DNA of 64,000 bases from Akkermansia muciniphila. GTDB lineage: Bacteria; Verrucomicrobiota; Verrucomicrobiia; Opitutales; Opitutaceae. Below are positions 17,869-21,914 of this stretch, in pieces. The position numbers were made by a program, and so were the translations under genes. Location: contig CAMCZZ010000010.1 in NCBI GenBank assembly GCA_945888375.1, positions 1 through 64,000 on the forward strand, written 5' to 3'. Under the pieces are notes generated by a model. It saw only the letters and a list, made by a program, of their open reading frames with translations. It made no database searches and was not told the DNA's origin. Numbering within the stretch: position 1 is the first letter of the stretch; every line of letters starts with the position of its first letter.

Positions 17869-18555
17869 ATGAGCAAGGCCATCGACGAACTGCGCGCCAC
17901 CATCGCCCGCCTGCGGGCCCCGGACGGGTGCCCCTGGGACATCGAGCAGACCCACCAATCCCTCGTGCGCTGCCTGATCGATGAGGTCAGCGAGCTCATC
18001 GACACCATCGACCGGACGGATTACCCCCACATGCGCGAGGAGCTGGGCGACGTGCTCATCCAGGTGGTTTTCCACGCGCAGATCGCCTCCGAGCGCGGCG
18101 CCTTTGATCTCGATGCGGTGGCCCGGGAGGTGAATGAAAAACTCATCCGCCGCCACCCGCATGTCTTTGGCGAAGGGGCCAAGCTCGGCGACTCGGCGGC
18201 CGTGCTGGTCAAATGGGAGGAGATCAAAGCCCAGGAAAAGAAAAACGGTCCGGTCCAGGCCGGGGTTTTTAAGGACCAACCGCCCCGGCTCCCCGCCACC
18301 ATGCTGGCCGAGGCCGTCTGGAAGCAGATCGAGAAAAAGTCTCTGCCGGTGGCCGATGCCGTCGCTACCGATCGGGTGGCGCAACTGGCCGGCGGTCTGG
18401 ACGACGCCACTCTCGGACGGGCCTTGTTCGAGCTTTGTGCGGCGGCGCGGAGCCGCGGCCTCGATGCCGAAGGCGCGCTCCGGCGCGAAAGCGACCGGGT
18501 GATGCGCGCGGTCGAGGCCCGGGTGGCGGCCACGCCCGCCGGTTGCGAAGTCTGA
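17869..18555 (+). CDS. mazG: Nucleoside triphosphate pyrophosphohydrolase MazG
   Basis: Hydrolyses NTPs and dNTPs to NMP plus pyrophosphate, acting as a house-cleaning enzyme. It has 228 residues, shorter than the about 263 of E. coli MazG. The N-terminal domain is complete: LRAPDGCPWDIEQTH, IDEVSELIDTID and REELGDVLIQVVFHAQ, which carry the magnesium ligands. The C-terminal MazG repeat is degenerate and shortened. The ATG at 17869 gives the standard start. It is followed 16 bases later by the recombinase gene. Confidence 0.93.
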   Translation: MSKAIDELRATIARLRAPDGCPWDIEQTHQSLVRCLIDEVSELIDTIDRTDYPHMREELGDVLIQVVFHAQIASERGAFDLDAVAREVNEKLIRRHPHVFGEGAKLGDSAAVLVKWEEIKAQEKKNGPVQAGVFKDQPPRLPATMLAEAVWKQIEKKSLPVADAVATDRVAQLAGGLDDATLGRALFELCAAARSRGLDAEGALRRESDRVMRAVEARVAATPAGCEV

Positions 18556-18571
18556 ACGCGTCGCCATCGCC

Positions 18572-19579
18572 ATGGGTGCCAAGACGCAACGCGGGCGCCG
18601 TCCGGGTGCGGCAGCAGGGGAGGCCGCTTCGGCGGAGCCAACCGGCGCCGAGTCCGAGGCCGCCTTGATCGAGCAATGGTGGACGCCCTTTGGCGCGTAT
18701 CTCACTCACGAGCGCCGCTACTCCGCCTACACCCTGCGCAACTACCGGCGGGCCTTTGAGGACTTTGTGGCTTGGCGCCGGCGCGCGCCCGGGGTGGGTG
18801 GGGCAGGACGGGAATTCAGCGGGCTCAGCACGCGCGTCATGCGGGATTTCGTCATCGAGGCCCAGCACCGTTACGGTCGCCGCACCTTGCACAACCACGC
18901 CTCGGGCTTGCGAGCGTTTTTTAAGTTTTGGCAGCGCCAGGGACGGGTGGAGAAAAACCCCCTCGTGGGCCTCGCTCTGCCCAAGCTGGAGAAACGTCTC
19001 CCCCAGTTTCTCACCGAGGGCCAGATGAAGGAGCTCCTGGCGGCGCCGTTGCGGCTGCTCGAAAACGGCGGCGTGGACGCCTTCACTGCGTGGCGTGACC
19101 GGCTGGCGATGGAGTTGCTCTACGGGGCGGGCTTACGCGTCAGCGAGCTGACCGGTCTGAACTACGGTGCGCTCGAAGCCGACGGCACGATCGCGCGCGT
19201 GCTGGGCAAGGGGCAAAAAGAACGTCTCTGCCCGCTGGGGCGGGTGGCGGCCGAAGTGCTGGCCAAGTGGCGTCGGGACTTTGCGCCCGATACCGGCTCG
19301 GAGGCCTCGGTGTTGGTCGATGCAAAAGGCCAACGCATGACGGACCGGGCGGTGCAGCTCATGTTGAAAAAATACCTCGCGCTGGCCGGCCTGCCACTCG
19401 ATCTGACCCCGCACAAGCTGCGGCACAGCTATGCCACCCACTTGCTCAACGCCGGCGCGGACTTGCGCCTCGTCCAGGAGCTGCTCGGCCACGCCTCGCT
19501 CAACACCACCCAAGTTTACACCCACGTGACCGTGGCCCGCCTCCGCGAGGTCTACGCCAAGGCGCATCCGCGGGCATGA
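18572..19579 (+). CDS. xerC: Tyrosine recombinase XerC/XerD
   Basis: A site-specific recombinase for chromosome-dimer resolution at dif. It has 335 residues. An N-terminal SAM-like core-binding domain (about 35-135, including YSAYTLRNYRRAFEDF) precedes the catalytic domain. Catalytic residues are visible in GAGLRVSELTGL (Arg), PHKLRHSYATHL (His-x-x-Arg), LLGHASLNTTQ (His) and VYTHV (Tyr). A 35-residue Ala/Gly/Glu-rich leader precedes the fold. XerC versus XerD cannot be decided without alignment. No dif-like site was found next to it. The repeat array starts 18 bases after the stop codon. Confidence 0.9.
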   Translation: MGAKTQRGRRPGAAAGEAASAEPTGAESEAALIEQWWTPFGAYLTHERRYSAYTLRNYRRAFEDFVAWRRRAPGVGGAGREFSGLSTRVMRDFVIEAQHRYGRRTLHNHASGLRAFFKFWQRQGRVEKNPLVGLALPKLEKRLPQFLTEGQMKELLAAPLRLLENGGVDAFTAWRDRLAMELLYGAGLRVSELTGLNYGALEADGTIARVLGKGQKERLCPLGRVAAEVLAKWRRDFAPDTGSEASVLVDAKGQRMTDRAVQLMLKKYLALAGLPLDLTPHKLRHSYATHLLNAGADLRLVQELLGHASLNTTQVYTHVTVARLREVYAKAHPRA

Positions 19580-19597
19580 GAGATCGTTGCAGTGGCC

Positions 19598-19996
19598 GGC
19601 AAGAACGATGCACCCGCCGACAGGAACGATGCACTCGCCGGCTACAACGATGCACCCGCCGACAGGAACGATGCACCGGCCGACTACAACGATGCACCGG
19701 CCGGCTACAACGATGCACTCGCCGGCTACAACGATGCACTCGCCGATAGGAACGATGCACCCGCCGGCAAGAACGATGCACTCGCCGATAGGAACGATGC
19801 ACCGGCCGACAGGAACGATGCACCCGCCAGCAGGAACGATGCACTCGCCGGCAGGAACGATGCACTCGCCGACAGGAACGATGCACTCGCCAGCTACAAC
19901 GATGCACCCGCCGATAGGAACGATGCACCCGCCGACAGGAACGATGCACTCGCCGATAGGAACGATGCACCGGCCGACAGCAATGATGCGTCCATC
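19598..19996. repeat. 21-bp tandem repeat array, 19 units
   Basis: Nineteen head-to-tail 21-base units, the last degenerate. Each has an invariant core AACGATGCAC and two variable blocks: a six-base block (GGCAAG, GACAGG, GATAGG, GGCTAC, GACTAC, AGCAGG, GGCAGG or AGCTAC) and a three-base block (CCC, CTC or CCG). Because 21 is a multiple of three, several frames stay open across it, including a GTG-started 155-codon frame (19592-20059) giving a seven-residue repeat of the type DRNDAPA. No frame has an independent sign of translation. Units are directly adjacent, so this is not a CRISPR array. Confidence 0.95.
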
Positions 19997-20217
19997 GCGC
20001 GCAACTTTTCGGCGATTTACACGGGATTGAGTCGAGTTAAAATAATAGCCAACAGTTGATTAGGCTAAATCTTCAATTTGTCTGACGCTCTGTTCGCACC
20101 CTACGATGAGCGGGGAATGGAGCGGAGCCCGACGCAGTCTGGGTGAGCCTGGGTTACTTTTTCGCGTCTTCAGTTCAAAATGAATTGAAATCAACGGAGC
20201 GCTGTGAATGATCCGCC

Positions 20218-20841
20218 GTGTTGAAAAGCGAGCCCGCCTATTCCAAGACCGCCTTAGCCCCGAGTATACCTCCCTTCGCGGTGTCGGTGGAGGGACTTAC
20301 CGCGTTTGAGAAGGAAATCGTGGCTGTTTTTGTGGATCTAGTGCTTTTACTCGGTCTTCCCAAGTCGGTGGGGGAAATATATGGTCTGCTTTTTGCCTCG
20401 GCGGAGCCGCTGAGCTTTGTTGAGGTCGAAGGTAAGTTGGGTTTGAGCAAGGGTTCGGTAAGCCAAGGGCTCAGGACTTTGCGCGATCTCGGGGCGGTTC
20501 GGGAGGTCGGCAACGAAGACCTGGGGCAAAATGATCCGGAGGGTGCCGCTGAGCCTGGCCGTGCACGACCGGAGTCGACTCCTTTGGTTAAAGAGCGTGG
20601 CGCGCGTTGGGTGGCGGCGGTGGAACTGCGCAAGTTGATCGGCAGTCTATTGCGTGAACGGCTTACGCCCTACCTGGAACGGCAGGACCAGCGGGTAGTG
20701 GCGGCAGGCGCGGCGCTTGATCAACTTCTCACGGAGTCGAAATCGAAACACCTTGGGCTCCTGGCCGGGCGCCTCGAAAAGCTGCAAACCTGGCAGTCCC
20801 GCACTCGCACGGTGCTTCCGGTGATCGGAAAATTGTTATGA
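20218..20841 (+). CDS. GbsR/MarR-family transcriptional regulator
   Basis: A 207-residue DNA-binding protein. The winged-helix domain spans about residues 40-100, with VGEIYGLLFASAEPLSF, a recognition helix KGSVSQGLRTLRDLGAV and a wing after it. The C-terminal half is helical with QDQRVVAAGAALDQLL, probably for dimerisation. Family members regulate by binding near their own operon. It precedes the polysaccharide gene series on the same strand, so local control is likely. The start codon is GTG at 20218 or TTG at 20221, with no clear ribosome-binding site. The upstream 160 bases hold no gene. Confidence 0.8.
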   Translation: MLKSEPAYSKTALAPSIPPFAVSVEGLTAFEKEIVAVFVDLVLLLGLPKSVGEIYGLLFASAEPLSFVEVEGKLGLSKGSVSQGLRTLRDLGAVREVGNEDLGQNDPEGAAEPGRARPESTPLVKERGARWVAAVELRKLIGSLLRERLTPYLERQDQRVVAAGAALDQLLTESKSKHLGLLAGRLEKLQTWQSRTRTVLPVIGKLL

Positions 20842-21076
20842 TCCTAGCTCACTATCGTCGACTCCGAAAAAACGTTGAAAGCGTATGGTTCACTTCAGCT
20901 TATAACCCACAACCGGTCATAAATAGCTCAAATCTTTGGTCATGATCTATACTGGATCAGCAGCTATGATTCTAAGCTAAGCTTATAGATAAAACTAGCC
21001 CCCGCATTAGCGTCATCGACACCCGGTAACGAACAACAAACCATCATCGACTCACTATTCCGGGCAACGAGCCATC
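20842..21076. other. AT-rich intergenic region before the polysaccharide operon
   Basis: Part of a 287-base gap between the regulator and the first operon gene. It is much AT-richer than the flanks and has no open frame worth noting. A TTGAAA hexamer at 20875 lacks a good -10 partner. The short inverted motif TAAGCTAAGCTTA near 20976 could be an operator for the GbsR-type protein, but this rests on sequence symmetry alone. Confidence 0.4.
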
Positions 21077-21105
21077 CTGACCTTAATCGATAAACCGATT
21101 ATATT
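21077..21105 (+). promoter_or_regulatory. Predicted sigma-70-type promoter of the polysaccharide operon
   Basis: CTGACC (21077-21082) and TATATT (21100-21105) with an ideal 17-base spacer; four of six and five of six consensus bases match. Transcription would begin near 21112, giving a leader of under 20 bases before the ATG at 21129. Confidence 0.45.
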
Positions 21106-21128
21106 AGCCACGACCACTCCTCCTCCGT

Positions 21129-21914
21129 ATGAATAAAGCCTATCCGCTTGGCCAAACCGGCTACCTCTTCGACTTAAACGGCCTAAGGGTGGTGGTAGAT
21201 CCCTATCTCACCGATAGTGTTGCCGATCAATTTGGTGAAGCGCTTCGACGCCAAAGCCGGCCGACACTGGAAGCCGAGGAGTTAACCGAGGTTTCCTGGG
21301 TGCTTGTGACTCATGCTCACCTTGATCACGCGGATCCTGCCAGCTTGGCGGCGGTGGCAAAAGCCTCTTCAGCCGCTGTTTTCGTGATTCCCTATGAATG
21401 TGAATCGATTCTTTTGGATACGGGAATAACCGCTTCCCGTATCCGCATAGTGACCGCCGGGGACGTTATTGAGCTTGGCGGCGGTGCCACTCTGACCGTT
21501 ATTCCGGCCGCCCATACCGAAAGGGAACGGGACGAGTTGGGCCGCGATCGCTACCTAGGTTTCTATCTAAAGACGGCCGAAGTTGCTATATATCATGCGG
21601 GTGACACTATTCCGCACGAAGACCTATTTCGCTCACTCGAGGGTTTGGTCGTCGATTTTGCGTTTCTGCCGGTGAATGAGCGCAATTTCTTCAGGCACAA
21701 GGCGGGTATCGTGGGCAACATGACGCCCAGAGAGGCGTTCGCTTTTGCGGAAGAAATCAAGGCGCGGGTCCTGGTCCCCACGCACTGGGATTTGTTCGCC
21801 CCTAACTCGACTTTTCCGTGGGAGGTGGAATGCCTTTATGGCGTTCAGCGGCCCTCCTTCACTCTTACATTCATGCCAAGTGGAGCATGTTACGCTCTTT
21901 CCGCAGGTAAATGA
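21129..21914 (+). CDS. UlaG-like MBL-fold metallo-hydrolase
   Basis: A 261-residue soluble metallo-beta-lactamase-fold protein. The metal site is THAHLDHAD (His62, His64, Asp66, His67), with further ligands in PAAHTER, YHAGDT and PTHWD. The sequence fits the UlaG branch (L-ascorbate-6-phosphate lactonase and relatives), whose members open sugar lactones or cleave phosphoesters. Its substrate here is unknown, but its place at the head of the polysaccharide operon suggests a sugar or sugar-acid derivative. The stop overlaps the flippase start (ATGA). Confidence 0.82.
   Translation: MNKAYPLGQTGYLFDLNGLRVVVDPYLTDSVADQFGEALRRQSRPTLEAEELTEVSWVLVTHAHLDHADPASLAAVAKASSAAVFVIPYECESILLDTGITASRIRIVTAGDVIELGGGATLTVIPAAHTERERDELGRDRYLGFYLKTAEVAIYHAGDTIPHEDLFRSLEGLVVDFAFLPVNERNFFRHKAGIVGNMTPREAFAFAEEIKARVLVPTHWDLFAPNSTFPWEVECLYGVQRPSFTLTFMPSGACYALSAGK

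Follow-up and report, generated by a model that had tools for sequence, protein, structure and literature searches.

The window analyzed here, a stretch of 64,000 nucleotides from a draft genome of 39 contigs (3.22 Mb), carries a tandem array of 20 units of 21 bp in a single register at 19583-19990 on the plus strand. Upstream lies a xerC-type tyrosine recombinase gene (18572-19579, plus strand; Phage_integrase 6.7e-41, Phage_int_SAM_1 1.5e-9), whose stop codon is separated by 3 bp from the first core of the array at 19583. Downstream lies a 207-amino-acid ORF (20218-20841, plus strand) with a weak IclR-type HTH match (21.1 bits, under the 22-bit cut-off); we treat both as neighbors only. A 155-codon open frame with DRNDAPA-like repeats (19592-20059, plus strand) runs through the array and was judged not to be a gene. 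A promoter and terminator scan of 19400-20300 gave two matches of each kind, none of them within the array, and phage records held no match to the array.

Units of the window array

The units read roughly WRS-AWCGWT-GCA-CYSGCCRRY. Each consists of an almost invariant core, AACGATGCA, and a 12-nt variable part, C[CT][CG]GCC[GA][GA][CT] and then, ahead of the next core, a triplet that is mostly AGG or TAC. Expressed as blocks, the variable part runs CCC, CTC or CCG, then GCC, then GAC, GGC, GAT or AGC followed by AGG, TAC or AAG, and linkage from block to block among the window units was not significant (p = 0.08, 0.23 and 0.47). Exact cores, 18 in all and 21 bp apart, occupy 19604-19969 on the plus strand, with the diverged first and last units lying outside them; the last core, a degenerate AATGATGCG, is at 19982-19990. 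Tandem Repeats Finder reported 19595-19989 with period 21, 18.8 copies, 83% matches, 0% indels and a score of 475, the highest of its five rows for the window, and the pattern AACGATGCAYYBGCC occurs 18 times in the array and 25 times genome-wide, against no genome-wide occurrence of the reversed-pattern control.

These results confirm the original prediction of a regular 21-bp array with a near-fixed core and two variable blocks. Its repeat and spacing hold, but its count of 19 units becomes 20 in register, and the bounds that it gave to the array, 19592-20059, are those of the ORF. The first unit, ATCGTTGCA, had been set apart as an inverted copy upstream of the array; its distance to the next core is exactly 21 bp, which makes it the opening unit of the same register, with the core half-sites exchanged. 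Because the genome is a 39-contig draft, the exact copy number is to be taken with care.

Distribution within and beyond the genus

Arrays of this kind are found at three places in the same genome, namely in the window (contig C10), at C14:34839-35162 and at C37:480-803, and together these hold 39 of the 49 genomic occurrences of AACGATGCA. Four of the 14 other genomes of the genus (G001, G007, G011, G014) also carry arrays, for a total of five of 15, several of the other 10 being incomplete; single core pairs with two mismatches were seen in G003, G005 and G012. The exact pair pattern was present in four of 57 related genomes, all of the same genus (the window's own, G007, G011, G014), and in two of 387 genomes of an unselected Verrucomicrobiota sample (its own and G011, thus the same genus again), where the control matched in one genome. 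We made a sequence profile out of 35 pieces and ran it on 160 genomes of the family, a search that named seven of the 15 genus genomes (four with matches); it matched five of the 160: the window's own, G001, G011, G014 and, with a weak single match, G369, in which inspection of the sequence revealed no array. The profile also matches the arrays on the reverse strand, in line with the approximate dyad described below.

We compiled 13 arrays in the genus, 10 of them with 13-20 units. Their cores shift in G014, G011 and G001 (AACGTTCTA, AACGGAGCG, TCCGGAGTA), units at the array ends are decayed, and no shared neighboring gene was noticed across the arrays. Public contigs matching the G011, G014 and G007 arrays come from metagenome-assembled genomes. 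One contig labeled Akkermansia muciniphila, CAMCHD010000096.1 (L116), has the same array as G007 at the same positions, and its label is probably wrong.

Several other features were observed around these arrays. Short-period repeats, of the type CCACGAAGGCACGAAG, lie immediately beside the C37 and C14 arrays (L026:360-460, L019:1770-1800), and a short-period repeat of the CCACGGATTTCGCGGATT type lies about 900 bp further along in C37. In G011 and G014, a stretch of about 840 bp with 81% identity (reverse strand of L316:402-1238 and L070:313-1131) sits beside differing array types, and is perhaps one locus at which the array was replaced. The last 88 bp of a 1243-amino-acid ORF without a Pfam match (L027:1002-4733) recur on C37 together with the array downstream of it.

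Among the readable xerC orthologs, an array beside the gene is peculiar to the window. The closest xerC ortholog, that of G011 (XerC 93% identical), is followed after about 180 bp by a 57% identical homolog of the 207-amino-acid ORF and has no array. It is one of 11 orthologs, besides the window's own, whose downstream DNA was readable (208 to 1500 bases each), and no array lies downstream of any of the 11. The longest chain of cores after any of these is two, against 20 in the window (step 21, at most three mismatches), and a homolog of the downstream gene was not found in the searched stretch of the other ten. A XerC-like match exists in all 15 genus genomes, the best in G008 and G014 being less than 40% identical and the G001 ortholog running off its contig. 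None of the contigs that carry the arrays elsewhere in the window's own genome or in G001, G007, G011 and G014 has a XerC-like match at E<=1e-30. Gain of the xerC-side array in this lineage is, on this comparison, the most economical reading.

Across genome contigs, a scan for exact AACGATG pairs returned 56 stretches from many phyla. Twenty of these contain a chain of at least four cores at a step of 21 or 42 with at most two mismatches, although some may be coding; the window's genus supplies two of the 20, and a further two come from a single different verrucomicrobial metagenome-assembled genome. Arrays with a similar core occur in cyanobacteria, Geomonas, Plasticicumulans, a planctomycete, Flavobacterium and Acidobacteriota, but agreement of the core across phyla proves nothing because all were found by searching for it. 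In 20 genomes chosen from those matches, AACGATG pairs numbered 216 against 13 for the reversed control, 131 of the 216 in a single genome. In unselected samples, besides the chosen center, the pattern occurred in one of 145 cyanobacterial genomes (control 0 of 146) and three of 198 Acidobacteriota genomes, two of these with 7-bp-type repeats (control 1 of 199), and in viral contigs six stretches had the pattern against 56 with its reverse. A single universal AACGATG family is therefore not supported, since unselected samples contain few arrays and the reversed control is commoner in viral contigs.

Individual look-alikes differ among themselves. Two 21-bp arrays in the Verrucomicrobiaceae genome D1_MAG_00050 (L100 and L134) have a AACGATGCAC core with spacers TTGCTCATCCA and TGGCGAATCCA; they do not share the dyad axis of the genus arrays described below, and their folding is inconsistent (z -2.6 to +0.5). 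Oscillatoria princeps RMCB-10 has 21-bp arrays of AACGATGGAGCTCNGAGCTCG on at least 12 contigs (L085, for example), with 89 three-core matches against none for the control, and the center of the palindrome there takes all four bases. In G629, from the Acidobacteriota sample, AACGATG recurs every 7 bp at several loci (L292 and the range L294-L308).

Order, register and constraint in homologous arrays

Comparison of arrays within the genus suggests how they arise. The arrays on C14 and C37 lie in paralogous segments (572 alignment columns, 83% identical) and have 16 units each in identical order. In a unit-order test of 55 array pairs, C14/C37, C85/C191 of G014 and C8b/C28 of G011 passed the cut-off of p<0.004, and C28 of G011 with C97 of G001 gave p=0.007; the other 51 pairs shared no order at p<=0.007, and the window array had no ordered match among the ten others with which it was compared (lowest p 0.12). 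Adjacent units are about as different from each other as distant ones. Kept order together with unlike neighbors argues that the arrays were inherited and copied as already diverse wholes rather than built by recent one-unit slippage.

Register is strictly kept. Over their 908 columns, the arrays in three homologous alignments contain three gaps of exactly 21 bp, which fall in two of the alignments and not in C14/C37, and a single gap of 1 bp, located in an end unit that has decayed. The 457 flank columns contain 11 small gaps, a rate at which about 22 would be expected in the arrays. We set the array bounds by hand, and of the 11 gaps counted to the flanks one (L324:1460) is within a decayed outer unit; two of the three alignments have one array in common. 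The fixed helical phase of the units is thus upheld, with one small gap against 11, and unit-wise exchange that removes small indels could contribute to it. Copy number, compared across homologous arrays of the genus, changes by whole units. The original prediction had named changes other than multiples of 21 as a test against coding. What we found was the opposite, changes of 21 or twice 21 bp, which noncoding gain and loss of units predicts just as well.

Constraint on the core is most evident in C14/C37, the best pair, where differences number 9 of 144 core sites, 48 of 192 other unit sites and 39 of 228 flank sites (core against rest, p=3e-6; core against flank, p=0.002; rest against flank, p=0.05), which puts the rate of change at the other unit sites at four times that of the core. 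The 39/228 supersedes an earlier flank figure for this pair, 60/277, that had taken in tail sequence without homology. A weaker contrast is seen for C8b/C28 of G011 (core 15/135 against rest 41/180, p=0.007), and none for C85/C191 of G014 (11/72 against 19/96, p=0.54) or for C28 of G011 with C97 of G001 (26/117 against 35/156, p=1.0). Extra constraint on the core is therefore present in two of the four homologous pairs and missing from two.

The unit also has an approximate dyad, centered between AWC and GWT, with loosely mirrored flanking bases. Of 21 axes compared, this one ranks first in all 11 genus arrays with at least 11 units, which do not amount to 11 independent tests because the arrays share ancestry. 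Per-array support ranges from 0 of 500 shuffles to p=0.19; the latter, the weakest, is the window array, whose dyad taken alone is not significant, and that of C28 in G011 (p=0.09) is not significant either. Complementary pairs at mirrored positions within units are not in excess, with or without G-U pairs (-2.7 to +1.7 sd of the shuffled mean), so half-sites read apart by a dimer fit better than a hairpin in each unit, and on this ground we rejected an RNA hairpin per unit. Among 18 hand-picked units from elsewhere, the same axis was best or tied in seven (5.3 expected), and five of the 18 had P<0.025 at it, which is no more than suggestive of a dyad axis shared beyond the genus.

Comparison with known systems and interpretation

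Minisatellites, or VNTRs, are tandem repeats outside genes with units of roughly 10-100 bp and copy numbers that vary by whole units. The window array, with its period of 21, head-to-tail units, 18.8 copies and 0% indels, fits this description, and the genus arrays resemble minisatellites in having a 21-bp tandem unit outside genes and whole-unit length differences. They are unlike them in their kept unit order, in neighbors as different as distant units, in strict register and in a near-fixed core with an approximate dyad. The iteron arrays of plasmid origins are direct repeats about two helical turns apart to which protein binds side by side. That spacing is shared here, side-by-side binding being a feature of the iterons, whereas the arrays of the window's genome lie at three loci on different contigs, the units are far more diverse, and no replication initiator was found among seven proteins scanned with Pfam. 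A CRISPR array, in which near-identical repeats of at least about 21 bp alternate with unrelated spacers, was considered and rejected, since only 9-10 bp are constant here and the parts that vary come from a small set of recurring sequences; no cas gene was found among six window ORFs scanned with Pfam.

REP and BIME elements are described as palindromic repeats tagged with GTAG and CGTC (PMC3733652). Like them, the genus arrays are extragenic, dispersed and partly palindromic, and most fold well as RNA, but they are long direct repeats rather than scattered palindromes. They lack a constant GTAG or CGTC tag because the triplet before the core varies (AGG, TAC or AAG in the window). In place of a tagged palindrome of 20-40 bp there is an approximate dyad only, and in place of many dispersed single or paired copies most AACGATGCA occurrences lie within the three arrays. 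The Y1_Tnp domain is present in 14 of the 15 genus genomes, whether or not these have arrays, in domain-level matches that do not separate RAYT subtypes; this distribution does not track the arrays and gives no support to a transposase link. Heptamer TAACTGA repeats, reported from Beggiatoaceae, Cyanobacteria and Bacteroidetes (PMC4679880), are likewise direct repeats between genes in which a heptamer is fixed; they occur patchily among lineages, and the function proposed for them is unproven. There, going by the abstract, the heptamer itself repeats, whereas the genus arrays have a 21-bp unit with a variable part. Among the papers listed by our literature search, none describes these 21-bp arrays.

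Twenty-one base pairs correspond to two turns of B-DNA. A phase fixed at 21 bp, a dyad whose center hardly varies, the lack of any coding sign and spread to unrelated sites together fit protein-binding arrays, and we tentatively favor, at a probability of roughly 0.45, the view that these are dispersed, helically phased noncoding arrays of putative binding sites for a DNA-binding protein in a verrucomicrobial genus. The units would be sites for a putative dimeric protein, copies of which could bind side by side because the sites fall on one face of the helix, and the arrays might have an architectural, silencing or anchoring role. New arrays would arise by copying of whole, already diverse arrays, and the copy beside xerC would be a recent gain with no special tie to XerC. 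The step from constraint to protein binding is one that we infer. Of the three readings in the original prediction, it is thus the phased binding array that is favored, short of proof; neither the repeat protein nor the recombinase-associated minisatellite is supported.

A coding repeat would specify heptapeptides, DRNDAPA-like on the plus strand or RRVHRSx on the minus strand, in a protein that is disordered or secreted. Consistent with this are the 155-codon frame that stays open across the array, length changes in multiples of three and a minus-strand frame, rev2, that is stop-free in 11 of the 13 genus arrays. Against this, stops in the six frames of those arrays fall broadly as column composition predicts (five observed and 6.7 expected in rev2, the least interrupted frame), with more than predicted in rev0 (35 against 21.9). 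Substitutions in the four homologous pairs have no codon phase (55/70/79, p=0.12), and the frame that is open on the plus strand of the window has one stop in C14, three in C37 and 19 in C406 of G014. The GAC/GAT and CCC/CCG changes, which the original prediction took as synonymous and weakly in favor of coding, belong to variation that also yields those same-frame stops in C14 and C37, and in a Pfam scan that covered the plus strand the two ORFs found there had no match. The window array is, judged by its sequence, most likely not a gene, and a protein-coding role is highly improbable. The array is most probably one copy of a noncoding dispersed element, with no coding sign, three places in the genome and length changes by whole units. 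A recombination site linked to XerC, or a minisatellite made by the adjoining recombinase, would account for the 3 bp between the xerC stop codon and the first core, but we regard either as barely credible given the 11 other readable orthologs without an array and the array-bearing contigs without a XerC-like match.

Two noncoding alternatives deserve more weight. Were the arrays transcribed, in the window likeliest from the minus strand, they could form a chain of hairpins with a REP-like effect on mRNA stability or act as a protein sponge. Folding of the window minus strand (z -4.76 and -4.89 against shuffles), z values of -2.2 to -9.7 on both strands of six other genus arrays and the approximate dyad are consistent with this, and strong folding in most genus arrays therefore keeps an RNA role under consideration. 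We nonetheless consider it unlikely, as the plus strand of the window reaches z values of only -1.18 and -0.75, mirrored positions within units show no excess of complementary pairs, no Rfam family was found at the gathering threshold in 18000-21500, and the array has the same orientation as the adjoining xerC at C10 and the opposite one to the adjoining ORF at C14. The main rival is a neutral or selfish intergenic minisatellite, copied about and changing length by recombination between units with no host function, in which unit exchange would purge odd units and so keep register and core regular. Presence in only five of 15 genus genomes, gain at one locus, whole-unit length changes, decayed end units and the two homologous pairs without extra core constraint make this a real, if lesser, possibility. 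It accords poorly with the kept order of several pairs and the unlikeness of adjacent units, from which it follows that exchange has not homogenized the arrays, with a core in C14/C37 that changes more slowly than either the remaining unit sites or the flank, and with the near absence of small gaps from the arrays relative to their flanks.

Going beyond the favored reading of phased binding sites, and as a long shot, the arrays may be a lineage-specific chromosome-organizing element, in which mobile phased arrays with mixed-and-matched half-sites (AAC, ATC or TCC with GTT, GAT or GGA) would serve a putative dimeric reader; those 21-bp arrays elsewhere whose axis lies between AWC and GWT (three cyanobacterial units, the planctomycete and Plasticicumulans) would then follow the same principle, whether inherited or independent.

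Intergenic tandem repeats in bacteria are usually dismissed as neutral minisatellites. The homologous arrays of this genus permit a direct test of that view, and in them the phase of 21 bp is held against drift with no sign of coding, as is the core in two of four pairs. Should some protein read these arrays, they would offer bait for a DNA-organizing factor of Verrucomicrobiota; if there is no such reader, they would be a case of regularity that persists without function.
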